A stretch of DNA of 64,000 nucleotides from Clostridia bacterium (GTDB taxonomy: Bacteria > Bacillota > Clostridia > Oscillospirales > Acutalibacteraceae), in NCBI GenBank assembly GCA_017409845.1, contig JAFQRY010000004.1, positions 45,845 through 109,844 on the forward strand, in the 5' to 3' direction. The notes beneath the pieces were generated by a model. That model made no database searches and was not told the origin of the DNA. It was given only the letters and a program-made list of their open reading frames with translations. A program made the translations under genes and the position numbers. Positions 1 to 21,422 of the stretch are shown here, piece after piece. How positions within the stretch are numbered: position 1 is the first letter of the stretch; each line of letters opens with the position of its first letter.

Positions 1-1
1 G

Positions 2-3000
2 CTTCTTGCAGAGGGCGAAACAAGACCCATCTTCATAGCAACCCATATTCCTCTGCATCATAACTCCAGAAACCCGAAGGCAAACAACAAGGATGCTGCC
101 GGAAACGTAGTCAGTACGGGATATAACGAAACTCTTTATTCTCGAGTTCTTTTTGAAACCATCAATGCTTATGCATCGGTTTTTGATATCATATTCTTCT
201 ATGGTCATAACCATTCGGGTGACTACGACGATTATCTTGGCGGTGCGGTCAACTATCTCGCAAAGGGTGAGAAAATCCGTATTCCTGATTCTTCTGTAAC
301 CCCGAGTGCAACATCATACACAGAAGAATCTCTTAACTTCACCTATATGAACTACGGTTATGTCGGCTATACAAACAATACAAACGACAAAACCCTCACT
401 ATGGGTGTGTTTGAAATCTGCCCCGACAGAATCGAGGTCACAAGATACTCGACTGAAGGCGTTTACAGAGAGCATACCATCAACCGAAATCTCAAAACAA
501 ATGAGGCTTCTGTTAGCATCGCAAGCTACGGTTCAGGTACTGTAGGTTCCGCTACGGGTGCTCTTGCAACCGCTACAGGTTTTACAGACCCTGTTTACAC
601 GTGGACTACAACCGATAATCAGATTACAACTATTACTGCAACCGGCAGAACCGCACAGATTTCTTACAATAAAGTCGGTACTGCAACCCTAACAGTTACT
701 GTAACGGAAAGAAACGATGCATCAAAAACTGCAACAGACTCTACTTCTATTACCGTTACAGATGAAGCAAAAGGCAAGGTTGCAACTATCCGAGTTGCCA
801 CTCAGGTGGTTGCACAGTCAGCTGTCGGCACAGATGCCGAGAAGATCGGTGTACTTGAATATTACAACGCAACTTTCGGCAAGGAAGTTTCGCTTGTAGG
901 CAGCTATGAAGGCTTTACCGCAAATGCAACAACTTTATGGTCCTCCTCTGACGCTAATGTTGCAACCGTAGACAACGGTGTTGTTAAGCTTGTCGGCAGC
1001 GGTACTGCATTTATCAGCTATACAGCAACCGATGCTAACGGTGATTCGTTTACAGCAAAGGTTAAGTTTGTAGTCAGCAATGCACCGAAGGTTCAATATT
1101 TATATGAAGAAGTTCCGAATACTTCAATTTCAGCAGGTAAAGAATATGCTATTGCAACCACCCGTGACGGCAACACTTATCTCTATAACAACACATTGGG
1201 AGATAACGGACAGGGTGCTACACTTGTCGGTACAAGCTGCACCTTTGCAGGCACAAGCCCTAACCGTACTGTTGAAGTAAGTGACGATTCATTTGTCTGG
1301 AGCACATCATCAACAGGAACTGATGGCGTATATTATCTGCAAAATTTATCCAGCGGAGAGTACCTCAGTTCTTCCCAGGTTACAAGTACTCCCATCAGAG
1401 GTAATTTTGTTCTGACGTCAAGTGTTCCGAGCGTTTCTGACGGCGGTTGGAGAATTGCAGCCAACAACAATCTCAGTAACGGCACTTACAACTGGTATGT
1501 AAGAGGCGGCGGTATAACCAACCTTCTTACCGATACTAAAACAGACTACGTTGTTTTGTTCGAAAAAAAGGCACTTAACCCAACTGCTTCGATTGACTTC
1601 CGAGGCGACGTTGTTGATAACACAAATCAGGTTCTTTATTCGGTAACAGATGTTCTGAAGGTTCCTGTTTACGGCATATACACCAACATTGAACAGCTCG
1701 GAGAAGAAACCTGGACTTCTTCAAATCAGAGCGTTGTCACCGTTGATTCAGACGGTATGCTCTCTTTCAAGGGTGTGGCAGGCACTTCGGATATTACTTA
1801 CACCGTAACCGATGCAAAAAGCGGACAGACCTACAGCGCAACATTCACAATTGAAGCAAAGCTCGGTGCCGAGCCTACACGTACTTTCAAATACACAAAA
1901 ACAATCCAACCCGGCAAAACCTATATGGTTATCAGTCAGAAAGCTATCGGTGACGCACTCGCTCTTTCGGGTTACAAAGTAACCTATGAAAAGCTTCTTG
2001 CTGAAGATATTACTGTTCAAGTCAACTCAAATAACGAATTTTTTGTTAATGTTCCCGCAGATTTCACGCATACCGTATGGATTCCCGAGAATGCAGGCGA
2101 CGGCACTTACTACCTCAAAAATGAGGCTGACGGAACATATTTCTATGCATGTTCAGACGGTACAGTCGATGATTACGGCGGTCTGAACGGCGAGGTTCTC
2201 ACAAGCGAATCCTATGAAACCAACACTGAGCGTTATAAATGGACTTATAACGGTACAAACCTTTATAATCAAAGCTCTTATACTAACCAGACAACGAGCG
2301 TGCTGTCTGATGTAACATATGTCAGACTTCGTTCAGCCAATTTCGCCGGCATTGCAACAATGAGTCAGTCCGAAATGTACTTCTACGAAGAAGTTCTGGC
2401 TGAACCCAACGGCGTTATCACATTGAGATATAACGTTCTCGGTGCAACCTATGTCAGAAACGAAATATGCCCCGGTCAGAGCGAAACCTTCGTTCCCAAG
2501 GCAGAAAACTTCCCCGATAACAATCAGGTTGATTTTATTTGGTCAATCCCCGAAGATGATCAGGATATTGCAACAGTAGACCCTGTAACTGGTGTTGTTA
2601 CTTATACCGGTAAATCAGGTAACGTTGACCTTACTCTTACATCAACATCAAGAATTTATGACGCAAACAGCGTCAAACCCGTTGACACAACAACAGTCAA
2701 GCTCATTGTTAACGGCGGCGAAATCGAAGTTCCCGAAGAACCCGAAGATCCCGATCAGCCCACTTTTGTTGAAAACGCTTACTATAAAACAACAACTCTT
2801 GTTCCCGGCAAAAAGTATGTTTTGCATACAAGCTATTCCGATGCTCCCAATCTTGCATTTTCGAATGAAAACAAGAGTGGTTACGTTCGTTTGCTTTGTG
2901 AAACAACAAATGCACCCCAGACGGACGAAAACGGAGAGTACATTGTAACAACAGATAATGCTCATATCTGGGAATGTGTTGAAAGCGGCGTTGACGGCTA

Positions 3001-6000
3001 TGTTTATCTTAAGAACATTGAAAACGGACAGTATTTGTTTACCAGTGAATCAGAAGCTGCAACAGCTAAGCGTCAGGCTGGTGTTGCGGCAGATTTAACC
3101 CATCCCGAAGCTGCCAATGTAACCAATGCCGCTGACAGTTTTCTTATCACTTATAACAGCTCCAACGGTATGCTGTTCTCAAAACAGGTTCAGGATACCG
3201 GATCAGTATATGGTGTTGGTAACGTAGCAAAATCCTCAGGCGGATACTATTACATCAGACCTACATATGACGGTTCAAGCGGTTCACCCGTCAGCTACAT
3301 TACTCTCTATGCAGAGCCTGATAAGGCTGAAACCGACAGCAACTATTACTATCTTACCGACAGCTTTGTTGCAGGTGAAAAGTATATTCTTCGTGCTGTT
3401 AAGGAAAATGAAAGCGGTGCAACGATAAGTATCGCAGTTTCAGGTACCAAAAACGGAGATACTAAGCTTGAAGGTGCGGCTGTTTCGCCTGTTGACAATG
3501 TGATTGAGAACGAAGATTCAAACATTGTCTGGATTGCCGAAGCAGGTTCAGACAGCAGTCATTTCTACTTGAAAAATGCCGATACCGGCGAATATCTCAG
3601 AATTGATAAAAACGGTGATATAGTAACAACAAGTGCAACCCAGGATGACAATGCTCAGTTGATTTACTATGAGAAGAATGGCCAATGGGTTATCGGCAGC
3701 AAGGCATCGCAAGCCAATCTGATCAGATATAACAATGCATTCTATGAGTCATCATCAGGTGCTGTGTTCGAGCTTTATCAGCAGGGCGATGCTCCCGAAG
3801 GCGGAGACACAATAACTGAAAAGAATGTTTATTATCTTACCGAAACATTTGAGGTTGGCAAGAAATATCTTATTTCAAACAGTAATACTGTGGGTGCTGC
3901 TGATGCACATGTAATGTCTAACCAGTATTACTCGGAAAACAAAATCCTTAAAGCTGTTTCAACTGAAATAAAAAGCAATGATAACGGCACATACATTTCG
4001 AATCCCGGTTCGGATGTTTTGATTGTTGAAGCAGTTACTTCAGATGTATCAAACTTTGTTAAGCTTAAAACAGAAGACGGTAAATATCTTGTAGTAGCAT
4101 ACAAAGATGCTGATGGTAATAGCTTGGCTTCAGGTGACAGAAAGGTTCTTCTTGCAGATGAAGGTGTTTATCTCCCTGATCAGTATCTCTTCAGGGCACG
4201 ATACAGTTCATCCAGCGGATTCAATGTCCTTATGACCAATGAAGGCGGTGCTTTGGTTTACAGCACGGGTACATCTGTTAACCGTTGGTCAACAAGCGGT
4301 ACTGCAAAAGCAATTTATATCTACGGCTTGGATGAAAGCACTGTTCCTCAACCTGTAGAGATGAAAGTGCAGATCAGAAAGCTTGATTATTTCGGTTCTG
4401 TTGATATAACAAACATAATAGAATACCGTTATGATATTGATAACGGTGACACAGAGCAGCTTTACAGATATACTGAATGTGTTCAGGATGGCTACACCTA
4501 CTCATGGTCTTCATCCGATACTTCGATTGCAACCATCGATCAGAGTACAGGTCTTGTTACCTATACGGGCAGGGAAGGTCACGTAACATTTAACCTTACA
4601 GTAACCGGCAATGATGATAACGGAGAAGCGGTTAATGAAACTGTTTCAACAACCTATAAGGTTTCAAGCGAACCCTACAGCCTTTCAGATGAGGATTACC
4701 CCGCATATCCCGATGAAGGTTCGGTTCGTATTAAGAAGACCGCGTCAAATGCTGCAGGCGGCTCAAACTTCCAGAACACAGGCGTTACCGAGATTGAACT
4801 TGGTGTAACGGGTGTTCCTGTTACTCAGCCTGTTGACGTTGTTGTTGTTCTTGACCACTCTGACTCCATGAACGGCAACAATCAGCTTCTTAACGCAATT
4901 AACGATACCCGTAACTTTGCACTTCAGCTTTTCAACGCAAATGAAAACAACCGAATTGCAGTTGTTACCTTCGACCAGTTCAGATATCACTACGAATCCA
5001 TAACTTCAACATCAATGATCAATTCGGAATCCGGTAATGAAGACAAAATCGTTACAGGTGACGGTACAATTCAGAATGCATTTGTTAAATTTGAACAAAT
5101 GGATAACCTTGCCGATGACCTTGACTCTCTCAAAGTTAATGCATACGGCGGTACAAACTATGACTCGGGTCTTAACTATGCGTACAGAATACTTCAGTAT
5201 GCAAAGACTGATCCCAATGCAAATGATAATCAGGTTGTTGTATTTATGTCGGACGGTGCTCCCACAAAGTTCAACGGTCTGAAACTTGGAAGCACCGAAA
5301 GCGGAACTCTTTCCGAGGCATGGATTACGGGTGATGAAACTAATGCCGAACTTGCAACATATCTTGCAGATACCGCAACATATCCTGCAGCGGCATATTT
5401 CAATACCGACGGTGAAAACTGGTTTGCAAAGGCAATCAAAACTCCCGAAGGTCAGGATGTTGAAGGTATGCCCAATGTAAGTCTTTATAACGGCTACCAT
5501 ACAGGTCTCGGTGCAAAGATTTACACCATTGGCTATAACTCGGGTTCGCAGGCTGCTCAGCTTCTTACAACAATGGCATCCAATCCGTCGAACTATTATC
5601 CTGCAACAACAAACCTTCAGGCAGCATATGACAGTATCCTTGAGCAGATTCTTTATGCTGCAGAGCATGCAGTTGTTACCGATAAGATGGGTGACCATTT
5701 CGATGTTCAGTTTGCAACTGAATTCTCAATCGGCGGTTCAACCGTAACCCTTAATCCTGTTCCCAAGTTTGAGATTGGTTACTGGACTCTCGACAACCTC
5801 GGTAACCGTGTAGAATATAATGTAATGGAAACTATTACATTTACTACAAATACTAACGGCGTTCTTACAGCTGCAAGCTCATCAATTATCGGTGATTGCT
5901 ATGATACAGCATCAAGCACCGTAATCGGTCAGTATGTTTCTTATAACCTCAACACCGAAACATTCACATGGAATGTCGGCGAGATCACCAGAAACGAAAT

Positions 6001-8866
6001 CACCCTCAAATATTATGCTTGCCTTGAAGGTGCGGCTAATGGTGAAAGAGAAGCAGGCACATTCGAAACCAACGAATATGCAACTCTTGCATATACAAAC
6101 TACAGAGGCACAGAATGTTCAAAGACTTTCCCCGTTCCCACTCTTGCATGGAAGCAGGCTGCTGTAAGCTACGATTTCTATCTCGTAAATGCTGCAGGTC
6201 AGCCCATCAACAGGCAAGGTGTTGCTGTTCCCTTTGCGGAAAGAGTTCTTATCGGCAGAGAGCAGACAAAGCAGCTCCTTCTCAACAGTAATGTAGAACT
6301 TACTGCATATGAGCTTATTGCAGGAAACGAAATTCCCTCGGGTTATGTTCTCTACAATAACGAAGCAAAATACAACATTTCTGTTTCGAGCACAAATGCT
6401 AACAGTTCGGCGGTAATTACCGACAGTACACTAACAACATATTACCGTGACGGTTCATATTCAATTAATGTTAACGGAAATGTTCCTAATGTTTCCGACT
6501 ATTCAAACACAGCAGTTTCATTCGCTGTTAAGTACACAGAAGGTATTATCCCTGACAGCGTTGTTATCGACTACGGTCTTCCCGTTAAAATCAGTGTTCT
6601 CGGCAACGACTATGCTGTAACAGGAGGTTCAATTACCAAGATTGGTAAGACTCTCGCAGATGGAACAATTCTTCACAGCGGTGCATACACAACAAGCCGG
6701 CTTACCGGCGGAACAACAGATGTCGCTCTCACCTACGGTAAAGCATCGATTGATGGCGGGTATGTAGTTTATACTCCCACAACCACTGCAATGGATAATG
6801 AAGAAGTATTCTATTATGAATATAAGACTGCAGATAACAAGTATTACTACACAACAATCACCGTTATTCCCGCAGCCAACATCTATTATGAAGAATCATT
6901 TATGACATTTGTTGACGGTCAGGATGACTACAAGTGGGAAGATGTCGGCACAGCAATCACCGGCAGATTCCAGGAAGAAGACAGACCCGGCACATTCTCA
7001 TTTGCTGAATACGATGCAGGTAATGCATATGGTGAAGATCCCGCATACGACGACAGCTATACTTATTCACTCGGCAACGCAAAGAAGACTACCGTTGATG
7101 CTGCTGCTTACGGCAAGGAAGCAACCGCAAAGTTCACCTTCTGCGGAACAGGCTTCGACCTCTTCAGCGTAACAAGCAATGAAACCGGTGCCGTTCAGGT
7201 TACTATTTACAAAGCAGGAACCACAACCATTTACAAGAACTTCCTTGTAAATACATACTATGGTTACAAGCTTGAAGAAGGCGTTCCTCTTCCCGATCTT
7301 AACAGCACAGCAGGTCTTTATCAGGTTCCCGTCATCAGTAGACGCGACCTTACTTACGGTACATACGATGTCGTTATCAAACCTCTTTACAGCTCTGCTT
7401 TTGACCCCAACTACAACAGCACTGCAAACAAGAAAGATAATGACTACAGCATTTATGTCGATTCAGTCAGAATTTTCAATCCCGCAGGTATAGGTGAATC
7501 GCTTGATAACGAAGTTATTAAGGACGTATACTACAAGGACGGCGAATACGCACCTTCATTCATGGAAATCAGAGATACCGTTCTTACTCTGGAAAATTTC
7601 TATGATGAACTTGTAGAAAATGAGGTTCTTGAAGGTCTTGGTTTTACCGGTTCAATCTTCCTTGACGGAAATTCAGCTAACGGTATTGATGATACAGCTC
7701 TTGCAACCTATAAGACTAACGGTCCCAAAAACGAACTTTATCTCGGCAAGGGTCAGGCTATTGCATTCACAGTAAGCTCTGCTGACAAAGAAGCTCTTGC
7801 AAGTCTTCAGCTTGGTATGAAGGTTGTTTCCGGCGGTGAAACAGCTAAGGTTACAATCATGAACACCAGCGAGAAGTATCCCAACAGCATCACCCTCAGC
7901 GGTACTCACGAAACATTCAAGAAGATTAACTCAGCGATTATCTGGGACCAGAATGAGATCAATTACGAGGATATGACCCAAAACGTATATTCAACTCTTT
8001 ATCCCATCGTAATTGCAAACACATCTGATACAGATACCGTTATTTCACTCACCAGCTTCAAGTGGGCACACACAACCAAGCCTGAAAGCGGTGATGCAGA
8101 ACCCGCTGCAGTTAATTTCATGGTTTATGACTCAACTCCCGCACTTGCAACAATGGCTCTCAGAAACGCTATGGCAGTTCAGGAAGTAAACGAAGAATCA
8201 AAGACCTACAACGAAGAGGATATCTCAATAGAATGGGTCGGCGATACATTCGTTGAAGGCAAGGAAGCAACCCTCAAAGTGACTACACCTCCCGAGGTTG
8301 TTAAGGTTACTGTTGACGGATCAGAAATTACTGAGTGCGAAATTGGCGAAAACGGTGACAAGCTCTGGAGCTATACATTTGTTACAGAACAGCCGGGCGA
8401 AAATGCATACGAAGTTGTATTCTATGACTATAACGGCGATGCAAGCGAGCCTGTTATGACAGAAACTATCGTTGTTGAGGAAGCTCCCGAAGAACCCACA
8501 ACTCAGGAGCCCACAACGGGCACACCTGAAGTAAGTGAGCCTGCAACAGACGTACCTGAAGTAAGCGAGCCTGCAACAGACGTACCTGAAGTAAGTGAGC
8601 CTGCAACAGACGTACCTGAAGTAAGCGAGCCTGCAACAGACGTACCTGAAGTAAGCGAGCCTGCAACAGATGAACCTGCAGTAAGTGAGCCTGCAACAGA
8701 TGAACCTGAAGTAAGCGAACCTGCAACAGATGAACCTGAAGTAAGCGAACCCGCAGCAGATGAGTCTGTTTATGAGAAGGTTATCCGCATTCTGTCAGAC
8801 TTCTTTACTAAGGTCTGGAATTTTATAAAGAGTATTATCGAATTTTTCTGGAGGTTATTTGCATGA
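2..8866 (+). CDS. Giant secreted metallophosphoesterase / Ig-like / VWA surface protein (5' partial)
   Basis: The reading frame is open from the first bases, so the N-terminus lies outside the window; 2954 residues are visible. The first ~90 residues look like the end of a calcineurin-type metallophosphoesterase, with THIPLHH and GHNHS metal-site motifs. Several Big_2-like Ig modules follow (patterns such as WSSSDANVATVDNG), alternating with about five related modules of the type PGKKYVL...VYLKN..GQYL. A von Willebrand A domain starts near base 4830; its MIDAS motif DHSDS is at base 4853, followed by GGTNYDSGL and MSDGAPT. Eight decapeptide repeats precede a C-terminal aromatic/hydrophobic helix ending in FFWRLFA, with no LPXTG signal. 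The stop overlaps the next start by ATGA. An extracellular adhesin or enzyme role is inferred; the substrate is unknown. Confidence 0.85.
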   Translation, partial: LLAEGETRPIFIATHIPLHHNSRNPKANNKDAAGNVVSTGYNETLYSRVLFETINAYASVFDIIFFYGHNHSGDYDDYLGGAVNYLAKGEKIRIPDSSVTPSATSYTEESLNFTYMNYGYVGYTNNTNDKTLTMGVFEICPDRIEVTRYSTEGVYREHTINRNLKTNEASVSIASYGSGTVGSATGALATATGFTDPVYTWTTTDNQITTITATGRTAQISYNKVGTATLTVTVTERNDASKTATDSTSITVTDEAKGKVATIRVATQVVAQSAVGTDAEKIGVLEYYNATFGKEVSLVGSYEGFTANATTLWSSSDANVATVDNGVVKLVGSGTAFISYTATDANGDSFTAKVKFVVSNAPKVQYLYEEVPNTSISAGKEYAIATTRDGNTYLYNNTLGDNGQGATLVGTSCTFAGTSPNRTVEVSDDSFVWSTSSTGTDGVYYLQNLSSGEYLSSSQVTSTPIRGNFVLTSSVPSVSDGGWRIAANNNLSNGTYNWYVRGGGITNLLTDTKTDYVVLFEKKALNPTASIDFRGDVVDNTNQVLYSVTDVLKVPVYGIYTNIEQLGEETWTSSNQSVVTVDSDGMLSFKGVAGTSDITYTVTDAKSGQTYSATFTIEAKLGAEPTRTFKYTKTIQPGKTYMVISQKAIGDALALSGYKVTYEKLLAEDITVQVNSNNEFFVNVPADFTHTVWIPENAGDGTYYLKNEADGTYFYACSDGTVDDYGGLNGEVLTSESYETNTERYKWTYNGTNLYNQSSYTNQTTSVLSDVTYVRLRSANFAGIATMSQSEMYFYEEVLAEPNGVITLRYNVLGATYVRNEICPGQSETFVPKAENFPDNNQVDFIWSIPEDDQDIATVDPVTGVVTYTGKSGNVDLTLTSTSRIYDANSVKPVDTTTVKLIVNGGEIEVPEEPEDPDQPTFVENAYYKTTTLVPGKKYVLHTSYSDAPNLAFSNENKSGYVRLLCETTNAPQTDENGEYIVTTDNAHIWECVESGVDGYVYLKNIENGQYLFTSESEAATAKRQAGVAADLTHPEAANVTNAADSFLITYNSSNGMLFSKQVQDTGSVYGVGNVAKSSGGYYYIRPTYDGSSGSPVSYITLYAEPDKAETDSNYYYLTDSFVAGEKYILRAVKENESGATISIAVSGTKNGDTKLEGAAVSPVDNVIENEDSNIVWIAEAGSDSSHFYLKNADTGEYLRIDKNGDIVTTSATQDDNAQLIYYEKNGQWVIGSKASQANLIRYNNAFYESSSGAVFELYQQGDAPEGGDTITEKNVYYLTETFEVGKKYLISNSNTVGAADAHVMSNQYYSENKILKAVSTEIKSNDNGTYISNPGSDVLIVEAVTSDVSNFVKLKTEDGKYLVVAYKDADGNSLASGDRKVLLADEGVYLPDQYLFRARYSSSSGFNVLMTNEGGALVYSTGTSVNRWSTSGTAKAIYIYGLDESTVPQPVEMKVQIRKLDYFGSVDITNIIEYRYDIDNGDTEQLYRYTECVQDGYTYSWSSSDTSIATIDQSTGLVTYTGREGHVTFNLTVTGNDDNGEAVNETVSTTYKVSSEPYSLSDEDYPAYPDEGSVRIKKTASNAAGGSNFQNTGVTEIELGVTGVPVTQPVDVVVVLDHSDSMNGNNQLLNAINDTRNFALQLFNANENNRIAVVTFDQFRYHYESITSTSMINSESGNEDKIVTGDGTIQNAFVKFEQMDNLADDLDSLKVNAYGGTNYDSGLNYAYRILQYAKTDPNANDNQVVVFMSDGAPTKFNGLKLGSTESGTLSEAWITGDETNAELATYLADTATYPAAAYFNTDGENWFAKAIKTPEGQDVEGMPNVSLYNGYHTGLGAKIYTIGYNSGSQAAQLLTTMASNPSNYYPATTNLQAAYDSILEQILYAAEHAVVTDKMGDHFDVQFATEFSIGGSTVTLNPVPKFEIGYWTLDNLGNRVEYNVMETITFTTNTNGVLTAASSSIIGDCYDTASSTVIGQYVSYNLNTETFTWNVGEITRNEITLKYYACLEGAANGEREAGTFETNEYATLAYTNYRGTECSKTFPVPTLAWKQAAVSYDFYLVNAAGQPINRQGVAVPFAERVLIGREQTKQLLLNSNVELTAYELIAGNEIPSGYVLYNNEAKYNISVSSTNANSSAVITDSTLTTYYRDGSYSINVNGNVPNVSDYSNTAVSFAVKYTEGIIPDSVVIDYGLPVKISVLGNDYAVTGGSITKIGKTLADGTILHSGAYTTSRLTGGTTDVALTYGKASIDGGYVVYTPTTTAMDNEEVFYYEYKTADNKYYYTTITVIPAANIYYEESFMTFVDGQDDYKWEDVGTAITGRFQEEDRPGTFSFAEYDAGNAYGEDPAYDDSYTYSLGNAKKTTVDAAAYGKEATAKFTFCGTGFDLFSVTSNETGAVQVTIYKAGTTTIYKNFLVNTYYGYKLEEGVPLPDLNSTAGLYQVPVISRRDLTYGTYDVVIKPLYSSAFDPNYNSTANKKDNDYSIYVDSVRIFNPAGIGESLDNEVIKDVYYKDGEYAPSFMEIRDTVLTLENFYDELVENEVLEGLGFTGSIFLDGNSANGIDDTALATYKTNGPKNELYLGKGQAIAFTVSSADKEALASLQLGMKVVSGGETAKVTIMNTSEKYPNSITLSGTHETFKKINSAIIWDQNEINYEDMTQNVYSTLYPIVIANTSDTDTVISLTSFKWAHTTKPESGDAEPAAVNFMVYDSTPALATMALRNAMAVQEVNEESKTYNEEDISIEWVGDTFVEGKEATLKVTTPPEVVKVTVDGSEITECEIGENGDKLWSYTFVTEQPGENAYEVVFYDYNGDASEPVMTETIVVEEAPEEPTTQEPTTGTPEVSEPATDVPEVSEPATDVPEVSEPATDVPEVSEPATDVPEVSEPATDEPAVSEPATDEPEVSEPATDEPEVSEPAADESVYEKVIRILSDFFTKVWNFIKSIIEFFWRLFA
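8525..8764 (+). repeat. Eight 30-bp tandem repeats encoding PEVSEPATD(V/E)
   Basis: Eight consecutive in-frame 30-bp units encode PEVSEPATDV (first four) and then PEVSEPATDE-type variants. This is an acidic, Pro-rich stalk near the C-terminus of the giant surface protein. The early units are almost identical at DNA level, so copy number probably varies between strains. There are no unique spacers, so this is not a CRISPR array. Confidence 0.95.
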
Positions 8867-9102
8867 AAAAGTATATAAAACCTGATATTTCTTTCCAGAA
8901 ATTGAATCTTTCAACAAACATTTCAGCCGGCTGTGAGCATACTGCTACACTGGATGCAGGTGTATGTCCCGCTGAAGTTCCCGGTCAGCCCGGACTTACG
9001 GTTTTTTTGGAGAACAGTGCTTGTATGGTTTATTCCCCCGATCTCGGCGGCTTAATCTGCTATCACGTTCCCACTGCTGACTCAAACGTATTTGAATCAT
9101 AA
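8863..9102 (+). CDS. Candidate RiPP precursor peptide, 79 aa, four cysteines
   Basis: The peptide starts MKKYIKPDISFQKLNLSTNI, with no signal peptide, followed by SAGCEH. Cysteines are at 24, 35, 54 and 66, and the last residue is Ser79. The start is set by a GGAGG site (8850-8854) inside the end of the upstream giant gene, whose stop overlaps this ATG by four bases, suggesting translational coupling. A hairpin follows, then genes for a radical SAM/SPASM enzyme, a PqqD-like protein, an HPr-kinase-like protein and an ABC exporter. Short Cys-containing peptides with such neighbours are commonly RiPP precursors. The charged/hydrophobic first ~22 residues would be the leader and the Cys-rich remainder the core. 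I do not recognise the exact family; the precursor role is inferred from context. Confidence 0.7.
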   Translation: MKKYIKPDISFQKLNLSTNISAGCEHTATLDAGVCPAEVPGQPGLTVFLENSACMVYSPDLGGLICYHVPTADSNVFES

Positions 9103-9110
9103 ATTTCCGC

Positions 9111-9153
9111 AAGCCGAGTCACCGCTTTGGTGACCCGGCTTTTCGGATTTTTA
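9111..9153 (+). terminator. Hairpin between precursor and maturation genes (terminator/attenuator)
   Basis: An 11-12 bp stem (AGCCGAGTCACC against GGTGACCCGGCT, one mismatch, small GCTT loop) is followed by TTTTCGGATTTTT. It lies 8 bases after the peptide gene stop and 14 bases before the lipoprotein start. It could partly terminate transcription, so that precursor is made in excess over the maturation genes. Confidence 0.75.
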
Positions 9154-9166
9154 AAAAGGTGAGCCT

Positions 9167-9838
9167 ATGAAATTGTTCAGAAAAGTTTCTGTGTTGATTC
9201 TTGTATCGGTGATGATAGTTTTATCTGCCTGCGACTCAAAAAAAGAAGCAGAAACATTCCATGGCGTTATATTTCCCGTTTCGGTTTACAGTGACGTGTT
9301 TGTGGAAGAAGCTGTAATCCGCACCTCCGATTTCCCCGAGGACGGAAGTTTTGAAGAAAAAAAGGATGTTCTTACTCTCAAAGTAAGAAATGAGGCTGAC
9401 AAAGCAATTCAGCTTCTCAGAATAAAGGTTACAACCGATCAGAAAGAAATGCTTTTTGAAATTACAACACTTCCCGCAAATATGGCGGTCAATGTTTTTG
9501 AAAAAAACGGACATACTCTTTCCAAGGGCGAAAAGATAGTTGATATTTCCGGCGAAAACAGAGTTGATTTTGAAAAAGCAATCGGTCTTCAAAGAGAAAC
9601 CTTTGAACTTGATGTTCACGACAAAGTTATCAATATCAGAAATATTTCAAAAAATGATATAGAATCCGATATTTATCTGTATTATAAAAAGAAAGATAAA
9701 GACGGAAGCTATTTCGGAGGAATAACGTTCCGTTCAAAGATAGACGGCCTCAGATCGGGCGAACTCAAGCAGATTCCCGCACCTCATTTTGCGCTGACTG
9801 ACAGCGAGGTGATTTTTTTAGATTATGCAGGTGAATAA
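9167..9838 (+). CDS. Lipoprotein of unknown function in peptide cassette
   Basis: This 223-residue protein has a basic N-terminus, a hydrophobic stretch and a lipobox LSAC with Cys22, so it is predicted to be lipid-anchored on the outer face of the membrane. The rest is a mixed alpha/beta-looking, charged sequence without a motif I recognise. The start has an AAAGGTGAG ribosome site. The gene overlaps the next one by 14 bases, tying it to the cassette operon. Possible roles are immunity, peptide capture or surface display; none is shown by the sequence. Confidence 0.75.
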   Translation: MKLFRKVSVLILVSVMIVLSACDSKKEAETFHGVIFPVSVYSDVFVEEAVIRTSDFPEDGSFEEKKDVLTLKVRNEADKAIQLLRIKVTTDQKEMLFEITTLPANMAVNVFEKNGHTLSKGEKIVDISGENRVDFEKAIGLQRETFELDVHDKVINIRNISKNDIESDIYLYYKKKDKDGSYFGGITFRSKIDGLRSGELKQIPAPHFALTDSEVIFLDYAGE

Positions 9839-10664
9839 ATATCTTTTTTGCGGCTGTTCGGTAGAATTGAAAAGCGATGATCCGATAGAAAAAGAAAGGG
9901 AATTCTCTGCATTTCTGTCAGAATATTCAGATGCCGATTATTCAATAAGAATAATCAGGACCGATGAATTGCCGCCAAAAACAGGAGAAGCGGTTTATCT
10001 TTCCGATCGCAGAAAAGTGTATTATGACGGCAGAACAAAGCTGTACACGGCATATTTCAATACAAAGGAATATAAGTATATTGATTATGCCTGCAAAATC
10101 GATAATTCAGAGCTTTACATCAAAAGCACTGACAGATTTGGAGAAATAACGGTTTTTGACAGCCTTAACCTGCCTGCGATACTGATTGAAAAGGGGATAG
10201 GTATTCTTCATTGTTCGTTTATTGAATATAAAGGATATGCAATTCTTTTTTCTGGTGATAAACAGGTCGGAAAATCGACTCAGGCTGCGCTCTGGAATGA
10301 GAATCTCAATACCGAAACAATAAACGGTGACAGAGCCGCATTATCTGTTGAAAACGGTGTTGTTTATGCAAACGGTATTCCGTTTTGCGGAACATCAAAA
10401 ATATGCAAAAATAAAAAACTTCCCGTCAAAGCGATAATCTGCCTTTCAAAGGGTACTGAGAACAAGATTAAAAGATTATCTGCGTCCGATGCTTTTATGT
10501 CGGTTATCGGTAAGTTTACCTATGATATGTGGGATAATAAGGCGTCGGAAACAATAGCCGATCTTGTGCAGACTGTTGCCGAAACCGTGCCCGTATATTC
10601 TTATTCGTGTCTTAAAGACAAGACTGCCGTGGATTTTCTTGAAAAAGAACTGTCTGCGCTGTAA
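9825..10664 (+). CDS. HPr kinase/phosphorylase-like P-loop protein
   Basis: A 279-residue protein with HCSFIEYKGYAILFSGDKQ leading into a Walker A motif, GDKQVGKST (residues 144-152), followed by NGDRAAL and IPFCGTSKI. This order resembles the catalytic half of HPr kinase (HprK) and its paralogues in RiPP gene clusters. It lacks the N-terminal DRTGG-type domain of true HprK; the first ~130 residues are different. HprK-like proteins occur beside PqqD-like and radical SAM genes, and one group phosphorylates the C-terminal serine of lasso-peptide precursors (the PadeK/ThcoK type). The peptide here also ends in serine, so it is a plausible substrate, but that is inference. It overlaps the lipoprotein gene by 14 bases. 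Confidence 0.7.
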   Translation: MQVNKYLFCGCSVELKSDDPIEKEREFSAFLSEYSDADYSIRIIRTDELPPKTGEAVYLSDRRKVYYDGRTKLYTAYFNTKEYKYIDYACKIDNSELYIKSTDRFGEITVFDSLNLPAILIEKGIGILHCSFIEYKGYAILFSGDKQVGKSTQAALWNENLNTETINGDRAALSVENGVVYANGIPFCGTSKICKNKKLPVKAIICLSKGTENKIKRLSASDAFMSVIGKFTYDMWDNKASETIADLVQTVAETVPVYSYSCLKDKTAVDFLEKELSAL

Positions 10665-10679
10665 ATGAGGTGATACAGT

Positions 10680-11825
10680 ATGGAAAACAAACCTGTTACA
10701 ATCAATCCCGTTTCATCAGAGCCGTTGATTTCAGCGTATCTTCATTCCAAGGCGAAAGAAAAAGGAATACCTCTTTCGGGAACCTTTGAGATAACGGGAA
10801 GATGTAATTTCAATTGCAGAATGTGTTATGTCCATAACTCGGACTGTAACAGAATGAAAGCTTCCGAATTACCTGCCGAATGGTGGATAAATCTGGGCAG
10901 AGAAGCGGTTGAAGCGGGAATGATTTTCCTTCTTATCACCGGAGGGGAACCGCTTATCCGCGATGATTTTGCTCAGATTTACACAGAGCTTTGCAAAATG
11001 GGATGTGTGGTTTCTCTGAATTCAAACGGTTATCTTATAAATGATAAAATAAAAGAACTGTTTAAAAAGTACCCGCCCAACAGAATCAACGTTTCAATTT
11101 ACGGTTCGGATGACGATACCTACGAAGGCTTTACGGGCGTAAGAGGCTTTACAAGAGTAATCCGTAATGTTGAAGAACTGCGTGAAATGGGTATTGATGT
11201 GAGATTCAATTGCAGCATCACTCCCGATAACCGCAGTGATATGGAAAACATTTTTAATGTTTGCAAGGAACACGGATTTCATGTTAAAACAACATCCTAT
11301 ATGTTTCCCCAGGTGAGAATCAACGGTGTTCACGGAGAAAATGAAAACCGATTATCACCCGAAGAGGCGGCAGAATGCCGTGTTGCCTGGTCAAAGCTAA
11401 AGTATTCGCCTGAAGATTTTGCTTCAAGAGCAATCGGAATGAAAAAGAAAATCGATGAGGTTCTCGGCAAAAAAGAGACGTATAACCCTGCCGAAGGTGT
11501 ACTGTGCAGGGCGGGAAGATCATGTTTTTGGGTGGACAAAGAGGGAAAAATGGCACCCTGCGGCATGATAAACAAAACATTTGATATCAAGTCAATCGGA
11601 TTTAACGAAGCATGGAATCAGGTGAAGAAATTCACATCCGAAATCCGTTTGCCTAAGGAATGCTCAAACTGTGCTTTCAGGCATTTTTGTAATGTTTGTG
11701 CGGCTGCCTGCTATACCGAAAGCGGAGATTATTCAAAGAAACCCGAATATATCTGCAAGTTCAGTGCGGAAACCGCACGCTTGACTCAACTCGAACTTGA
11801 AAGGCTTGAAAAAGATGGAAATTAA
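10680..11825 (+). CDS. Radical SAM/SPASM peptide-modifying enzyme
   Basis: A 381-residue protein. The radical SAM cluster motif CNFNCRMC (Cys42, 46, 49) is followed by the SAM-binding GGEPL motif and the strand motif NVSIYG. The C-terminal SPASM domain has cysteines at 276, 282, 294, 328, 331, 337, 340, 344 and 359, enough for two auxiliary Fe-S clusters. The family includes PqqE, AlbA and other enzymes that crosslink peptides through Cys thioethers or C-C bonds. The start has a GAGGTGAT site 16 bases after the kinase-like gene. With the four-Cys peptide and PqqD-like gene nearby, it is predicted to modify that peptide. The exact chemistry cannot be told from sequence. Confidence 0.9.
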   Translation: MENKPVTINPVSSEPLISAYLHSKAKEKGIPLSGTFEITGRCNFNCRMCYVHNSDCNRMKASELPAEWWINLGREAVEAGMIFLLITGGEPLIRDDFAQIYTELCKMGCVVSLNSNGYLINDKIKELFKKYPPNRINVSIYGSDDDTYEGFTGVRGFTRVIRNVEELREMGIDVRFNCSITPDNRSDMENIFNVCKEHGFHVKTTSYMFPQVRINGVHGENENRLSPEEAAECRVAWSKLKYSPEDFASRAIGMKKKIDEVLGKKETYNPAEGVLCRAGRSCFWVDKEGKMAPCGMINKTFDIKSIGFNEAWNQVKKFTSEIRLPKECSNCAFRHFCNVCAAACYTESGDYSKKPEYICKFSAETARLTQLELERLEKDGN

Positions 11826-12075
11826 AAAAAATGTGATTATGAGAACCGTTGCAGGTGAGCATATGCTTGTACCTGTCGGCGATACGGTTTTTCAGTATAA
11901 CGGAATATTTATGCTGACAGACAGCGGCAAGCTCTTATGGGATAAAATCCGTGATGGTGCTGAAAGCGAAGGGCTTGTAAAAGCTTTAATCGAAGAATAT
12001 GATATTGATGAGGCAACAGCCTCCAAAGATGTTGCGGATTTTCTTGAAAAACTGCAGTCATATGAAATTATCTGA
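11815..12075 (+). CDS. PqqD-like peptide chaperone (RiPP recognition element)
   Basis: An 86-residue protein with the PqqD fold pattern: an N-terminal beta region (VIMRTVAGEHMLVPVG), VFQYNGIFMLTDSGKLLWD, then helices with IEEYDIDEATASKDVADFLE. PqqD-like proteins bind the leader of the precursor and present it to the radical SAM enzyme. An upstream in-frame TTG at 11797 is possible, but ATG 11815 gives the canonical length. The gene overlaps the radical SAM gene by 11 bases, so the two are probably translationally coupled and work as a pair. Confidence 0.85.
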   Translation: MEIKKNVIMRTVAGEHMLVPVGDTVFQYNGIFMLTDSGKLLWDKIRDGAESEGLVKALIEEYDIDEATASKDVADFLEKLQSYEII

Positions 12076-12095
12076 TTGAGAAACGGGATGATATT

Positions 12096-13820
12096 ATGAA
12101 GAAGCCAACTGAATATGTTCAGCTTTTCCGTTCACTCGGAAATGAGTGGAAATGGCTTCTGCGATATGCTTCACGGTACCGTTTGCAGATAGCTCTGTAT
12201 GTTGTTATCGGAATTGTGAGCACTGCGATGGGTCTTGGATCAAGTGTAGCAACTAAATATCTGATAGACTCCGTTGTTTCGCACAATGATGATACTATTC
12301 TCAGAAATGCACTTCTTGCAGTCGGTCTGAGCCTTTCTCAGATTATTGTGGGTGCGGTGATATCGAGAATAGTTGCGGTGGTCGGAACAAAAATCAGCAG
12401 TGAAATCCGAAGCAGTATCTATGAGCATATAACCTACTCAAAATGGGAGAATATCAGAAAATTTCATTCGGGCGATTTGCTTAACAGAATTGAAGGTGAT
12501 GTTGCTTCGGTTTCAAACAGCATTATCACCTATATCCCGGGAATTTTCACAAAAGGTGCGCAGTTTGTCGGCTGCCTTGCGGTTGTGCTTTATTACGACC
12601 CCACAATGGCGATATTTGCTTTTCTCAGCGCTCCGTTTCTTGTTATTTCATCAAAGATAACAATGAAAATGATTCGCAAATACAACAAAGAGAGCCGCGA
12701 AATGAACGGCAGAATTCTTTCGTTTTATTCCGAATCAATACAGAATTTACAGACAATCAAGGCGTTCGACATAACAAAAAGATATGTTGATCAGATGAAA
12801 ACGAATCTTCAGCTTCACAGAAAAATCAAGCTTGATCACGACCGTTTTACCATCGCAATGAGTCTCTGTATGTCGGTTATAGGGCTTGTGGTGGCTTACT
12901 CCTGCTACGGCTGGGGTGTCTACCGCCTCTGGCAGGGTGCGATTTCATACGGAACAATGACCTTGTTCCTGCAGATTTCGGGTCAGCTTACGGGCTCGTT
13001 TTCAAGCCTTGTTTCGCTTGTTCCGGGTGCAATTTCAATCGCCACCGCCGCAGGAAGAATAATGGAAATAACCGATCTTCCGCTTGAAGAGCACAGGGAC
13101 AGCAAAAAGGCTGAAAAAATGGAAAAATCCGCAAACGAAAACGGCGTGACAATCGTTTGCGATAATCTGAAATATACATATCCCGACGGAGACGAACCCG
13201 TAGTCGGCAATGCGACCTTCAGGGCGGAGCCCGGTGAAACAATAGCATTTGTCGGTCCCTCGGGCGAAGGCAAAACAACGCTTCTCAGGCTCATTCTCGG
13301 GCTTGTTGAGCCCGATTCGGGCACACTGAGCGTCGAAACAAAAGACGGAATGAAGCTCGGCATTTCCGAAAGCACCAGAAGATTCTGTTCCTATGTGCCC
13401 CAGGGAAATGCAGTCTTTTCGGGCACTGTTGCGGATAATCTCCGAATTGTCCGACCCGAAGCTGCAGATGATGAAATAATTGCCGCTCTCAGGGTTGCGG
13501 ATGCATGGAGCTTCGTTGAGGAGCTGCCTCTCGGAATTAATACCGTGATAAGCGAAAAGGGTGTTAATTTCTCAGAGGGTCAGGTGCAGAGAATCTCAAT
13601 CGCAAGAGCGATTCTCCGCGATGCTCCCATCATTGTTATGGACGAGGCAACAAGTGCGCTCGATGCCGAAACAGAGGCAAGGGTTGTTGCAAACATGATG
13701 AATGCTTACCCAAACAGAACAAGAATCATCACAACCCACCGCCCCGCAATGCTCAGATACTGCACAAGGGTTTATTCAATTGAGAAAAACGGAAGATTGG
13801 TTGAAATATCAGAAGAATAA
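12096..13820 (+). CDS. ABC exporter, fused membrane and ATPase domains
   Basis: A 574-residue half-transporter. Six membrane segments occupy about residues 25-310. The nucleotide-binding domain has Walker A GPSGEGKTT (387-395), signature FSEGQVQR, Walker B IIVMDEATSALD with Asp516-Glu517, and the H-loop TTHRP. It forms a homodimer in the cytoplasmic membrane. There is no N-terminal C39 peptidase domain, so it would export the peptide without cutting the leader itself. Position between the PqqD-like and glycosyltransferase genes, with short gaps, suggests export of the modified peptide. Confidence 0.9.
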   Translation: MKKPTEYVQLFRSLGNEWKWLLRYASRYRLQIALYVVIGIVSTAMGLGSSVATKYLIDSVVSHNDDTILRNALLAVGLSLSQIIVGAVISRIVAVVGTKISSEIRSSIYEHITYSKWENIRKFHSGDLLNRIEGDVASVSNSIITYIPGIFTKGAQFVGCLAVVLYYDPTMAIFAFLSAPFLVISSKITMKMIRKYNKESREMNGRILSFYSESIQNLQTIKAFDITKRYVDQMKTNLQLHRKIKLDHDRFTIAMSLCMSVIGLVVAYSCYGWGVYRLWQGAISYGTMTLFLQISGQLTGSFSSLVSLVPGAISIATAAGRIMEITDLPLEEHRDSKKAEKMEKSANENGVTIVCDNLKYTYPDGDEPVVGNATFRAEPGETIAFVGPSGEGKTTLLRLILGLVEPDSGTLSVETKDGMKLGISESTRRFCSYVPQGNAVFSGTVADNLRIVRPEAADDEIIAALRVADAWSFVEELPLGINTVISEKGVNFSEGQVQRISIARAILRDAPIIVMDEATSALDAETEARVVANMMNAYPNRTRIITTHRPAMLRYCTRVYSIEKNGRLVEISEE

Positions 13821-13829
13821 GGTGATAAG

Positions 13830-14753
13830 ATGGTCAGGGGATTTGTAACATTAGCTACGGGGAATATCATATATTATAGAATGGCTGCTAATTTGCTTGC
13901 CTCTTTTAAAATTCACAATCCGGGTGTTCCGTTTGCGATAATTTGTGACAGAACAAACGAATATACTGATATGTTCGATGATGTTGTTTTGCTTGAAAAA
14001 GCAAATGGAAACTATATTGACAAATTATCGCTGCTTATTAAATCACCATATGATGAGTCTATATTTATTGAGCCGGATTGTCTCATTTACAGAAATCTGG
14101 ATTTTTTTTGGGATTTATTATCACATGAATCGGATTGTTCAAGTTTTGGTTGGAATGATGGTGGCTTGAAACGTTGGTTCGGTACTGAGGAAGTGAGGGC
14201 TCGTTTATTTGAACTTATCTCTGAACTTGATGAGAATATGGTGGTTCCTCTTTTTAATCCGGGATATATTTTTATAAGAAAAGGTTCGAAGTGCAAGAAA
14301 ATGTATGAGGATTGCCTTGATGTTGCAGAAAAAATAAGTAAAGACTCCCTTCTGAGTCAATATTCACCGTTATCGGCCGGAGGTAAACTTCGTGACGATC
14401 CAATATTCAGTATTGCTATGGGAATGAACGGGTTTATTTGTCATTCAGAGCCCAAAAAATCTAAATGCATAGCTCTTCCTTCCAAGTACACGATTAATAA
14501 AATCGATATAATTGAAGGCGGTTTGGATGTAACAGATAAGAATGGTCGAAAATTTGACGATTGTGCACTTCTACATTTTTCTACGAGAAAAGCATTGGAA
14601 GAAGGTTTGTATCTTTGGCAGACCATTCTTTTGTTTTTACATAAAAAAAACTGTAAATTATATAAAATTTTAAACAACAAGGTTTTTTGTACAGTGTGTG
14701 AACTGTTTAGAAAAGCTAAAAAGACAATAAAGCTTTTATTGAATAAAAACTGA
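13830..14753 (+). CDS. GT-A-like glycosyltransferase
   Basis: A 307-residue protein beginning MVRGFVTLATGNIIYYRMA, with a region IFIEPDCLIYRNLDFFWDLL that matches the metal/nucleotide-sugar site region of GT-A enzymes such as GT8-type proteins (EPD in the DxD position), and later LFNPGYIFIRKGS. It starts 9 bases after the ABC gene with a GGTGAT site, so it is likely co-transcribed. Base composition is visibly more AT-rich than the preceding genes, suggesting separate acquisition. It may glycosylate the peptide or a surface glycan; the sequence does not decide. Confidence 0.6.
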   Translation: MVRGFVTLATGNIIYYRMAANLLASFKIHNPGVPFAIICDRTNEYTDMFDDVVLLEKANGNYIDKLSLLIKSPYDESIFIEPDCLIYRNLDFFWDLLSHESDCSSFGWNDGGLKRWFGTEEVRARLFELISELDENMVVPLFNPGYIFIRKGSKCKKMYEDCLDVAEKISKDSLLSQYSPLSAGGKLRDDPIFSIAMGMNGFICHSEPKKSKCIALPSKYTINKIDIIEGGLDVTDKNGRKFDDCALLHFSTRKALEEGLYLWQTILLFLHKKNCKLYKILNNKVFCTVCELFRKAKKTIKLLLNKN

Positions 14754-15773: not shown

Positions 15774-16172
15774 ATGTGTGAAAAATTTTATGTATGCAGA
15801 GAAAATGAATTGAAAGAATCTCTGAGAAGTAAAAAGCTTAGGAAAACACCGAAAATTTACATGGTGGGATATACACAGTTCTCAAATTGGATTTATGAGG
15901 ATTACAGTCCCGACTGTGATTATCATCACGAGAGTCTGTATTTTGTTGATTATTCAAATGATGGAGAAGACGTGGTGTGGGACAAGTTTTTTAACTATAC
16001 GGCATTGAAAATTTTCAATGAAGGAAAATATGAAAAAATAACGATAGACAGAGAAGAATACAGCATTGATGTTATTTGCGATGAGTATTCATGTTACAGT
16101 TTATCTGCGTTCTGGCACAGCGCAGAAATGAGCGGAGAGGAGATTGAATGGCTAAAAGACAAAGACGGCTAA
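15774..16172 (+). CDS. Hypothetical protein beside tyrosine recombinase
   Basis: A 132-residue protein starting MCEKFYVCRENELKESLRSK, acidic and rich in Tyr/Asp, with no recognised domain. ATG 15774 is preceded by AAGGAA at 7-base spacing; the longer open frame from 15678 crosses the hairpin region and is not used. Its 3' end overlaps the recombinase gene by 25 bases, indicating co-expression. It may be an accessory protein of the element. Confidence 0.65.
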   Translation: MCEKFYVCRENELKESLRSKKLRKTPKIYMVGYTQFSNWIYEDYSPDCDYHHESLYFVDYSNDGEDVVWDKFFNYTALKIFNEGKYEKITIDREEYSIDVICDEYSCYSLSAFWHSAEMSGEEIEWLKDKDG

Positions 16173-17119
16173 GTATAACTCAACAGATAATGAAAAATGT
16201 TGATGAGCGGTTAAAAGCGAAGAATTACGCGAACCATAAAACCTATCGTCAGTTTCTTAGGCACAGTTACCGATATGTGAAATTTTGCAGGGAGAATTTT
16301 GACTGCCGCGATTATAAGTCTTGCTGTAATTTAGAATATGTGCAGGCTTACTGTGACAGTATGATTGACTTATACACGGCCAGCACAATCCATACCTATC
16401 TTGCGGCTGTGGCTGTATCGTTTGACGGCGTAAAACTCAAAATTATCAACAAACCTGTGCGGCATACCGCTGAATACATCCGAGGAAGGAAAGAACCTTT
16501 TGCTCCTCAGAAATCATCCGATTTATCGCACGAAGCGTGGAAAAGTATCGTAGATTTCAATTTAAAAGTCGGGATCAGAAAACGCGAACTTCAAAACTTA
16601 AAAGGTTGTAACTTCAAAAAAGACGAGAGCGGATATTGGTGTGTTGAGGTTCTTCGAGGCAAGGGAGGAAAGTACACTTTAAATCGCTTGAACAGCGAAG
16701 AAGATGTTGAATTTATCAGACAATATTTTGAACGGGTGGAACCAGATGAACCCGTGTTTCCACCCGAAATGTTCAACAACCATCTGAATCTGCATAAACT
16801 CAGAGCTGAATCGGCGAAAGAATATTATAAGATTCAAGTTGAGAAAATTCTTGAAAATCCCGAATACGCAAAACAGTTGGAGAGGGAAATTCTGTCACGA
16901 TGGAATAAATACTATATCAACCCCAAAACGGGCAAACCGCGTTATTTTGACAAAAAAGAAATATGTGGCTGGTGGGTATTGCGTGGAAAAAATCGCGAAA
17001 AAGCGCGTCAATTGGGTAACGACGGAAAATACCTGAAAATGGCGGTGCTCGCGACAAGCATTTTTAAATTATCACATTGGAGAAATGATACAACAATTTT
17101 CTCATACCTAAACACATAA
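16148..17119 (+). CDS. Tyrosine recombinase/integrase with internal insertion
   Basis: A 323-residue integrase-type protein. The N-terminal SAM-like DNA-binding part (about 10-100) is followed by a catalytic domain: GIRKREL with Arg144 or nearby, RGKGGKY with the beta-hairpin Lys, NLHKLR giving His216 and Arg219, and a C-terminal LSHWRNDTTIFSYL with His310 and probable nucleophile Tyr320. About 90 residues separate HxxR from His310, whereas the family normally has about 25, so there is a charged insertion of roughly 65 residues. The start has GGAGAGGAG upstream. It overlaps the previous gene and lies between copies of a 12-bp motif that may be its binding site. Confidence 0.8.
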   Translation: MAKRQRRLSITQQIMKNVDERLKAKNYANHKTYRQFLRHSYRYVKFCRENFDCRDYKSCCNLEYVQAYCDSMIDLYTASTIHTYLAAVAVSFDGVKLKIINKPVRHTAEYIRGRKEPFAPQKSSDLSHEAWKSIVDFNLKVGIRKRELQNLKGCNFKKDESGYWCVEVLRGKGGKYTLNRLNSEEDVEFIRQYFERVEPDEPVFPPEMFNNHLNLHKLRAESAKEYYKIQVEKILENPEYAKQLEREILSRWNKYYINPKTGKPRYFDKKEICGWWVLRGKNREKARQLGNDGKYLKMAVLATSIFKLSHWRNDTTIFSYLNT

Positions 17120-17147
17120 GTCTGTTTTCTGAATTGTTTTTTCGGCA

Positions 17148-17159
17148 ATCTGTCATAAC
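17148..17159 (+). repeat. ATCTGTCATAAC motif, copy 3
   Basis: Third exact copy, 28 bases after the recombinase stop. It is preceded by TTTTTTCGG and followed by AAAAGGTGA, similar to the flanks of copy 1. Confidence 0.85.
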
Positions 17160-17244
17160 TGTAAAAGGTGAGTCATTCGGAGAAAAAATAAATTTTTTTA
17201 AAAAAATCTTCGGAAAATGACAGAATCTGTAAAAAACCATAGCG

Positions 17245-17276
17245 AAAAATTTTTTGCATTTTGAATCTGTCATAAC
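17245..17276 (+). repeat. ATCTGTCATAAC motif, copy 4, with shared upstream flank
   Basis: Fourth copy (17265-17276), with AAAAATTTTTTGCA at 17245. The pair of elements matches 15121-15161, so this is an imperfect direct repeat of about 30-40 bp bracketing about 2.1 kb that includes the tyrosine recombinase. Confidence 0.7.
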
Positions 17277-17308
17277 TTAGGCAAAAACTAACCGAAAGGA
17301 GCAGATTT

Positions 17309-17650: not shown

Positions 17651-17672
17651 ATTTACAGATTGTAATTCGGGC

Positions 17673-17713: not shown

Positions 17714-17735
17714 CCGTAACGGAGGTAGCTGAACT

Positions 17736-21392: not shown

Positions 21393-21422
21393 TTTTTCTG
21401 CTCCCTTTAAAAATTCTGTTAG

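Follow-up and report, generated by a model that had tools for sequence, protein, structure and literature searches.

What does a gene cassette make when it places an HprK-like kinase beside a radical S-adenosylmethionine (SAM) enzyme, and with what does its product act? This question is raised by a 64,000-nucleotide stretch of contig JAFQRY010000004.1 from a Clostridia bacterium of the gut (hereafter the window), in which a small peptide gene is followed by genes of families that mature ribosomally synthesized and post-translationally modified peptides (RiPPs). A first-pass annotation had described six genes here, encoding a four-Cys peptide, a lipoprotein, an HprK-like protein, a radical SAM/SPASM enzyme, a PqqD-like protein and an ATP-binding cassette (ABC) exporter, as a cassette whose product might be modified twice. 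All six genes were confirmed where it had placed them (Table 1). The limits proposed for the cassette (8863 to 13820) were too narrow, since it also takes in the gene of a giant secreted protein that ends at 8866. We consider it reasonably probable that this is a RiPP maturation cassette whose product carries a phosphate on its C-terminal Ser and cross-links made by the SPASM enzyme, and is active together with the giant at the cell surface.

A conserved precursor peptide that ends in serine

In another genome of the same genus (locus L061), a peptide 80% identical to that of the window is encoded, and the gene order is kept through PqqD. For this pair, the ratio of nonsynonymous to synonymous substitution rates (dN/dS) was 0.14 for the peptide gene and 0.08–0.16 for the other four genes. 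Because of this relative with the same gene order and the low dN/dS, we regard the peptide gene as real. Genomes were sampled from the genus (n = 45), the family (n = 300) and the class (n = 391), and peptides were counted per genome by profile search. A single-sequence search was used only as a secondary measure; several of its matches weaker than about E = 0.001 were due to chance, with stops inside, and that of genome G004 was real. An extra weak match in the window genome (G000:C33, E = 8e-4) was discarded, as it contained stops. The profile detected the peptide in 19 of the 45 genomes of the genus. A search with a kinase profile retrieved 80 named loci, and the peptide was present in 60 of them; the records retrieved include Intestinibacter bartlettii DSM 16795, Clostridium celatum DSM 1785, Pseudoflavonifractor sp. 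An44 and Lachnoclostridium sp. An76, along with metagenome-assembled genomes (MAGs) from rumen and gut. The cassette is genuine and turns up repeatedly within Clostridia. A DNA search against plasmids gave no match.

In an alignment of 46 diverse relatives, Tyr4, Cys66 and the C-terminal Ser79 were invariant, and Lys6, Pro7, Cys24 and Cys54 were conserved in at least 90%. The four cysteines of the first-pass annotation (positions 24, 35, 54 and 66) are present in the window, but Cys35 is missing from some relatives. The C-terminal residue is fixed in this alignment, although the rest of the peptide varies. This tendency was prominent in the distinct peptide open reading frames (ORFs; <90% identity), of which 80 out of 82 ended in Ser, compared with 53 of 1091 other ORFs; both of the peptide ORFs without a terminal Ser look broken. 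Phe or Tyr stood two residues before the end in 72 of the 82. The motif YxxP was found in 79 of the 82, a count due in part to the procedure itself, in which long ORFs were cut back to a motif of this kind; better evidence for it is given by the 46-relative alignment. A genetically encoded precursor, a conserved leader, adjoining modifying enzymes and a RiPP recognition element (RRE), which mark RiPP systems in general, are all present, as are the HprK-like kinase and the C-terminal Ser that mark the paeninodin type.

Association of the peptide with kinase and radical SAM genes

Among the 17 kinases aligned, His129, Lys150, Asp169, the GKSTQ of the P-loop and an NGD motif were invariant. A structure model of the window kinase (mean predicted local distance difference test score, pLDDT, 94) was matched best in Foldseek by PEPCK (4.6e-7) and HprK/P (2.4e-6) with probability 1.0; the template modelling (TM) scores were low, the best being 0.56 among the matches listed. 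A PDB sequence search returned only weak HprK matches (E = 0.49), and the curated NCBIfam cut-offs were not reached (HprK_rel_A, 14.6 of 200 bits; ScmC, 16.7 of 125 bits). At E ≤ 1e-30, the kinase was found in 20 of the 45 genus genomes, namely in all 19 with the peptide and in 1 of the 26 without it. When peptides were identified by single-sequence search (E < 0.001), it was found in 15 of 15 peptide genomes. Moreover, kinase and radical SAM genes are fused in both orders, as ORFs of 661 aa (L088/L115, on one contig) and 650 aa (L182). Conservation, co-occurrence and fusions thus support the idea of a RiPP pathway in which a kinase and a SPASM enzyme act jointly, as the first-pass annotation had proposed; it had taken the product to stand alone, and had overlooked the giant, the invariant Ser and the type of the leader.

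The neighbours at the 60 peptide loci were the radical SAM gene (57), the module giant described below (47), PqqD (43), a membrane-anchored protein (40) and the ABC exporter (14). The SPASM match of the radical SAM enzyme in Pfam (0.024) was under the cut-off, but its sequence shows CxxxCxxC and a cysteine pattern like that of SPASM domains, and the best PDB sequence match was SkfB (2e-13). The top PDB sequence matches of the PqqD-type RRE were lasso B1 proteins (TbiB1, 9.6e-6; 9x90, 0.0015). According to the available text of PMC13381572, the RREs of lasso peptides and of linear polyphosphorylated peptides (LPPs) bind [Y/W]xxP leaders. The recognition and kinase parts of the cassette are of this lasso/LPP kind.

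The first-pass annotation had named homologues without any of these enzymes as evidence against its reading. Locally, such peptide genes exist, at eight loci (L062, L064, L072, L073, L074, L076, L077 and L078), but all six genomes concerned (G007, G008, G014, G036, G038 and G044) hold the enzymes on other contigs. The enzymes are therefore probably able to act in trans.

A giant secreted protein encoded directly upstream

The gene of the giant extends beyond the window, its chosen ATG lying 557 nt 5' of the window start and the ATG at 347 being internal. A Sec-type signal peptide was recognized by eye, and the frame overlaps the peptide ATG by 4 nt. When 18 giants were aligned (some perhaps cut at the 5' end; 18–39% identity to the first), the N-termini were variable and a C-terminal module of about 500 aa was common. 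The N-terminal domains (E ≤ 0.01) were GH2 in three, GH88 in one, metallophosphoesterase in one and VWA_2 in eight; the closest giant (L085) also had an N-terminal calcineurin-like phosphoesterase match. The module alone (A4) contained 20 invariant columns. Pfam gave nothing in the module region of the window giant, and a model of the module (mean pLDDT 74) drew scattered Foldseek matches, all of low TM score, to beta-sandwiches of carbohydrate-binding and adhesin type, so that no fold was assigned. The median hydrophobic moment of the C-terminal tail was 0.60 in 59 module ORFs with the peptide, 0.54 in 25 without it and 0.38 in 539 other ORFs. Among the module ORFs with a stop, none showed an LPx[T/S]G motif within its last 60 residues; on visual inspection a few giants seem SLH-like, and a dockerin match was obtained in 1 of the 18. 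At L065 (387–1187), a module-free ORF of 266 aa directly 5' of the peptide gene has a giant-like amphipathic tail and an actin-like N-terminal domain (ALP_N, 5.5e-14).

In 60 distinct giant-peptide pairs, the gap between the genes ranged from -19 to +157 nt (median 15), with 58 pairs within 45 nt. The numbers of genomes with the peptide, the module and both were 19, 19 and 17 in the genus, and 19, 23 and 18 in the family, where two of the five module-only genomes (G069 and G122) had a divergent Ser-ending peptide behind the giant (L213 and L212, respectively). In the class, the module was found in three genomes and the peptide in five, with both adjacent in three (G000, G374 and G629), a result weaker than it looks in that G000 is the window genome, G374 is not independent of the seed L147 and G629 alone is independent. 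The other class matches of the peptide (G513 and G573) covered half of the profile; in the former (L229), an ORF of 107 aa ends in Ser and adjoins HprK, radical SAM and PqqD genes, with no module within 9.1 kb. The 47 peptide loci with a module giant come from records named after several families and show three gene orders. At L147 and L148, the peptide lies within the operon of the giant, not directly behind it. Among the 13 giant-free peptide loci, a contig edge lies at most 2.3 kb upstream of the peptide in 10; of the others, L132 and L164 belong to a sister family (see below) and L136 is giant-free within 9 kb. The usual placement of the peptide gene directly behind the giant suggests a surface partnership that had gone unnoticed.

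A strict one-to-one rule was ruled out, because a profile-detected peptide stood directly behind 59–60 of 84 distinct module ORFs with a stop (the higher count results from wider start handling). This set of ORFs is biased, since most loci were retrieved via HprK or peptide matches and the peptide-free ones mainly after module searches. A looser count of 65 pairs, which includes chance ORFs (L199, L204 and L208), was not used.

RNA folding behind the peptide gene

The window hairpin behind the peptide gene is followed by a T-run, and none of 200 shuffled sequences folded as well. In the 75 nt after the peptide gene, a fold with z < -2 was found in 64 of 85 cases, and in 45 of the 85 it also ended at a T-run; such folds were found after 16 of 102 kinase, 9 of 91 radical SAM and 10 of 60 accessory genes. 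A simple consensus scan of the window listed 8 terminator-like sites, compared with 5.2 by chance, without this hairpin among them, and the count of promoter-like sites, 18, was close to the 13.3 of chance. Because a stable fold commonly follows the peptide gene, the giant and the peptide probably form one strong transcript, with the downstream enzymes being reached by read-through.

Accessory protein, exporter and surrounding genes

The accessory protein is a lipoprotein in the window, as had been annotated, but its relatives often look like single-pass membrane proteins (N-termini judged by eye). The exporter gene is likewise present in the window, but it was ruled out as a defining part of the cassette by its presence at only 14 of the 60 peptide loci and its loose co-occurrence across genomes. 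No peptidase domain was among its Pfam matches. At L082 and L083 (G004:C5), a single ABC exporter lies between two giant-peptide cassettes that differ in gene order, as if it served both; one of the two peptides is shortened by a stop. No relative of the protein encoded at 13830–14753 was found in the 40 loci compared.

Table 1. Features of the cassette (window coordinates unless a locus is named)
Feature	Position	Strand	Basis
Giant secreted protein, 3,140 aa in full (L185)	1..8866, extends upstream	+	VWA, GBS104-like Ig, Big_2 domains
Conserved C-terminal module of the giant, consensus YGYDxAY..YSxGSA..FTFxGTGFDLIS	6134..7807	+	Aligned with 18 other giants
Amphipathic C-terminal tail of the giant, without LPXTG	8771..8863	+	Hydrophobic moment
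Precursor peptide, 79 aa, Cys24/35/54/66, C-terminal Ser79	8863..9102	+	ORF, relatives, alignment
YIKPDI leader motif; discrete lasso/LPP RREs bind this type, [Y/W]xxPx[L/V/I/F/A]	8872..8889	+	Alignment, literature
Codon of the invariant C-terminal Ser79, proposed phosphorylation site	9097..9099	+	Conservation; analogy with PadeK
Terminator/attenuator-like hairpin between the peptide and downstream genes	9106..9153	+	z -5.35
Membrane-anchored extracytoplasmic accessory protein, lipoprotein in the window	9167..9838	+	N-terminus
HprK-fold kinase, P-loop GDKQVGKST, His129, Asp169	9825..10664	+	Alignment, structure model, Foldseek
Radical SAM/SPASM enzyme, CNFNCRMC	10680..11825	+	Pfam radical SAM 7.8e-23; PDB sequence match SkfB
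PqqD-type discrete RRE	11815..12075	+	Pfam PqqD 2.4e-15; best PDB sequence match lasso TbiB1
MsbA-like ABC exporter, facultative neighbour	12096..13820	+	Pfam, PDB sequence search
Glycosyltransferase-like protein (by eye)	13830..14753	+	No Pfam or NCBIfam match
Natural kinase-radical SAM fusion ORFs, opposite orders	L088 10579-12564; L182 8882-10834		

Farther downstream, a weakly integrase-like ORF (0.032, under the cut-off) and a serine recombinase lie at 16148–19403, possibly as parts of a mobile element. They are followed at 19446–25573 by a minus-strand GH98-family glycosidase gene and then by plus-strand genes for a galactokinase-like protein, a nucleotidyltransferase and a sugar transporter of the major facilitator superfamily (MFS). 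A 2,379-aa protein with GH94 and glycoamylase-type domains is encoded at 26154–33293, and three more giant ORFs with many Listeria-Bacteroides repeats (Flg_new) lie at 39308–64000; these three were not among the module matches of the window genome.

A sister family of precursors

Beside kinase and radical SAM genes at eight loci (L093, L094, L095, L132, L164, L168, L180 and L182), we observed sister precursors with a [YWF]xxP leader followed by F..N[EQ]. All ten of these precursors end in Ser, without an aromatic residue two positions before the end, and an exporter was found at 7 of the 8 loci. This family may be a radical SAM relative of LPPs, because an S24-like peptidase is encoded in L094 (7302–7760, 1.9e-6) and a weaker one in L183. 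Other small ORFs near HprK were judged spurious by eye (overlap, opposite strand or no F..N[EQ] motif), and no recognizable precursor was found at several HprK loci, for example L127, L131, L138, L151, L166 and L183.

Comparison with known systems

Paeninodin-type lasso systems, as far as described in the available text of PMC9266682, share the HprK-like kinase, the conserved C-terminal Ser and the RRE with the window cassette, whereas the latter has a radical SAM enzyme instead and three to four conserved Cys. A lasso peptide was ruled out, as neither a macrolactam synthetase nor a B2 protease was found among the genes at 8863–14753. With LPPs, the cassette shares an HprK-like kinase, a discrete RRE, an MsbA-like exporter, a YxxP leader and nearby polysaccharide genes, although the likeness in the exporter is limited to 14 of the 60 peptide loci. 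The LPP core in the available text of PMC13381572 comprises an SpI-like leader peptidase and a nucleoside triphosphate (NTP) transferase, with no radical SAM enzyme listed and a giant protein unmentioned. The window cassette has a radical SAM enzyme and no SpI-like peptidase among the genes at 8863–14753, and an LPP was accordingly ruled out; with regard to an NTP transferase, the protein encoded at 13830–14753 is glycosyltransferase-like by eye and gave no Pfam match. Sactipeptide and ranthipeptide systems (e.g. that of SkfB) have a SPASM enzyme and a Cys-rich precursor in common with the cassette, which adds a discrete RRE, a kinase, the C-terminal Ser and the giant partner gene. Display by sortase/LPXTG, SLH or dockerin resembles it in that giant modular secreted enzymes or adhesins share a C-terminal element; here, by contrast, the giants have the module and the amphipathic tail without LPXTG, and the partner gene encodes a small peptide. 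PMC4289311 covers HPr kinase, radical SAM and RiPP, and its available text places the kinase in lasso clusters only. Searches of an open-access library turned up no RiPP pathway described as containing both an HprK-like kinase and a radical SAM enzyme, and no description of this cassette.

Proposed pathway and its alternatives

By analogy with known families, the PqqD-type RRE would bind the YxxP leader, the HprK-fold kinase would phosphorylate, or perhaps polyphosphorylate, the invariant C-terminal Ser, and the SPASM enzyme would cross-link the core via the conserved Cys, most likely by thioethers. Export might be carried out by the MsbA-like ABC protein, whose gene adjoins the cassette here and lies elsewhere in some relatives, and the product would meet the probably co-transcribed giant outside the cell, where, speculatively, it most likely binds or anchors the giant via the conserved C-terminal module and the amphipathic tail. 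Our confidence declines along these steps, from RRE binding through Ser phosphorylation, cross-linking and export to surface action. Phosphorylation of Ser79 is suggested by three lines of evidence: the terminal Ser is kept, in lasso precursors the C-terminal Ser is the residue phosphorylated by HprK-like kinases of the PadeK type (available text of PMC9266682) and the YxxP recognition is of lasso/LPP type. In favour of the pathway, we also count the polysaccharide genes of CpsB/CapC (5e-59) and Wzz type (6e-6) that lie on the opposite strand just before the giant.

Several observations weigh against this pathway. The phosphorylation site calls for caution, because the HprK-like kinase of LPPs modifies an internal residue, Ser3 (available text of PMC13381572), and no second Asp is invariant in the 17 kinases, so that the His-Lys-Asp-Asp motif of lasso kinases is partial. 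No leader peptidase was identified among the genes at 8863–14753 by Pfam or NCBIfam. The exporter is loosely associated (present in 14 of the 19 peptide genomes and in 7 of the 26 others; p = 0.002), and the co-occurrence p values ignore shared ancestry. In the family, the kinase was found at E ≤ 1e-30 in 21 of 300 genomes, including 18 of the 19 with the peptide, and at E ≤ 1e-5 in all 19, but this co-occurrence is inflated because the profile seeds were drawn from the same genomes and the extra-genus seeds from HprK loci; at the looser threshold, an HprK-like match occurred in 135 of the 300. Moreover, 24–25 of the 84 module ORFs have no peptide directly behind them, and the peptides of L062, L136 and L229 have no giant in reach. 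The terminal Ser and the genus-level results are independent of the class-level weakness, the seed bias and the giant-free peptides.

The peptide could alternatively be an ordinary secreted bacteriocin of sactipeptide or ranthipeptide type, with the membrane-anchored protein as its immunity factor and the giant as a mere upstream operon neighbour. The SkfB match, the Cys-rich precursor, the membrane-anchored protein at 40 of the 60 peptide loci, a stable fold that closes the expression unit and the three peptides without a nearby giant would all suit a bacteriocin. We nevertheless regard this as unlikely, given that giants with the same module stand at 47 of the 60 loci across several families by record name and three gene orders, that the C-terminal residue is invariant while the rest varies, and that some peptides lie beside a giant without the membrane protein (L074 and L077). 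The invariant end also bears on a quite improbable explanation, in which the kinase acts elsewhere, the kinase-like protein being a chaperone or regulator, and the radical SAM enzyme uses the C-terminal [FY]-x-Ser as a substrate motif (e.g. for a cyclophane). C-terminal F-x-S motifs are modified in other radical SAM RiPPs, and the frequency of Phe or Tyr two residues before the end (72 of 82) indicates that the motif could be such a site, a further point against phosphorylation of Ser79. However, Ser is more invariant than the aromatic residue, the ten sister precursors end in Ser without an aromatic, and all 17 kinases aligned have the same P-loop, His and Asp.

A peptide with a signalling or regulatory role, acting on the expression of the giant or of the neighbouring polysaccharide genes, would explain the tight coupling of the giant and peptide genes, as well as the CpsB/CapC and Wzz-type genes upstream of the cassette and the Wzz-type genes in L094. 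This seems very unlikely to us, as no conserved regulator was among the genes recognized at the compared loci, where no systematic search for regulators was made. Our preferred reading of a phosphorylated and cross-linked product acting with the giant can itself be extended, tentatively and with considerable doubt, to RiPP-based surface display: the peptide would take the place of sortase signals or S-layer domains and hold glycan-active giant exoproteins by their conserved C-terminal module, and its phosphate would perhaps link it to a polymer of the wall or capsule.

What paeninodins and LPPs do, as the HprK-phosphorylated RiPPs known so far, is described as unknown in the available text of PMC13381572. 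With the present cassette, a predicted HprK-type phosphopeptide gains a definite partner: a giant secreted protein that carries a shared module. Two different modifications are predicted on one precursor, at sites fixed by conservation. Because this link is present in cultured gut bacteria as well as in MAGs, the role of such phosphopeptides is directly testable.

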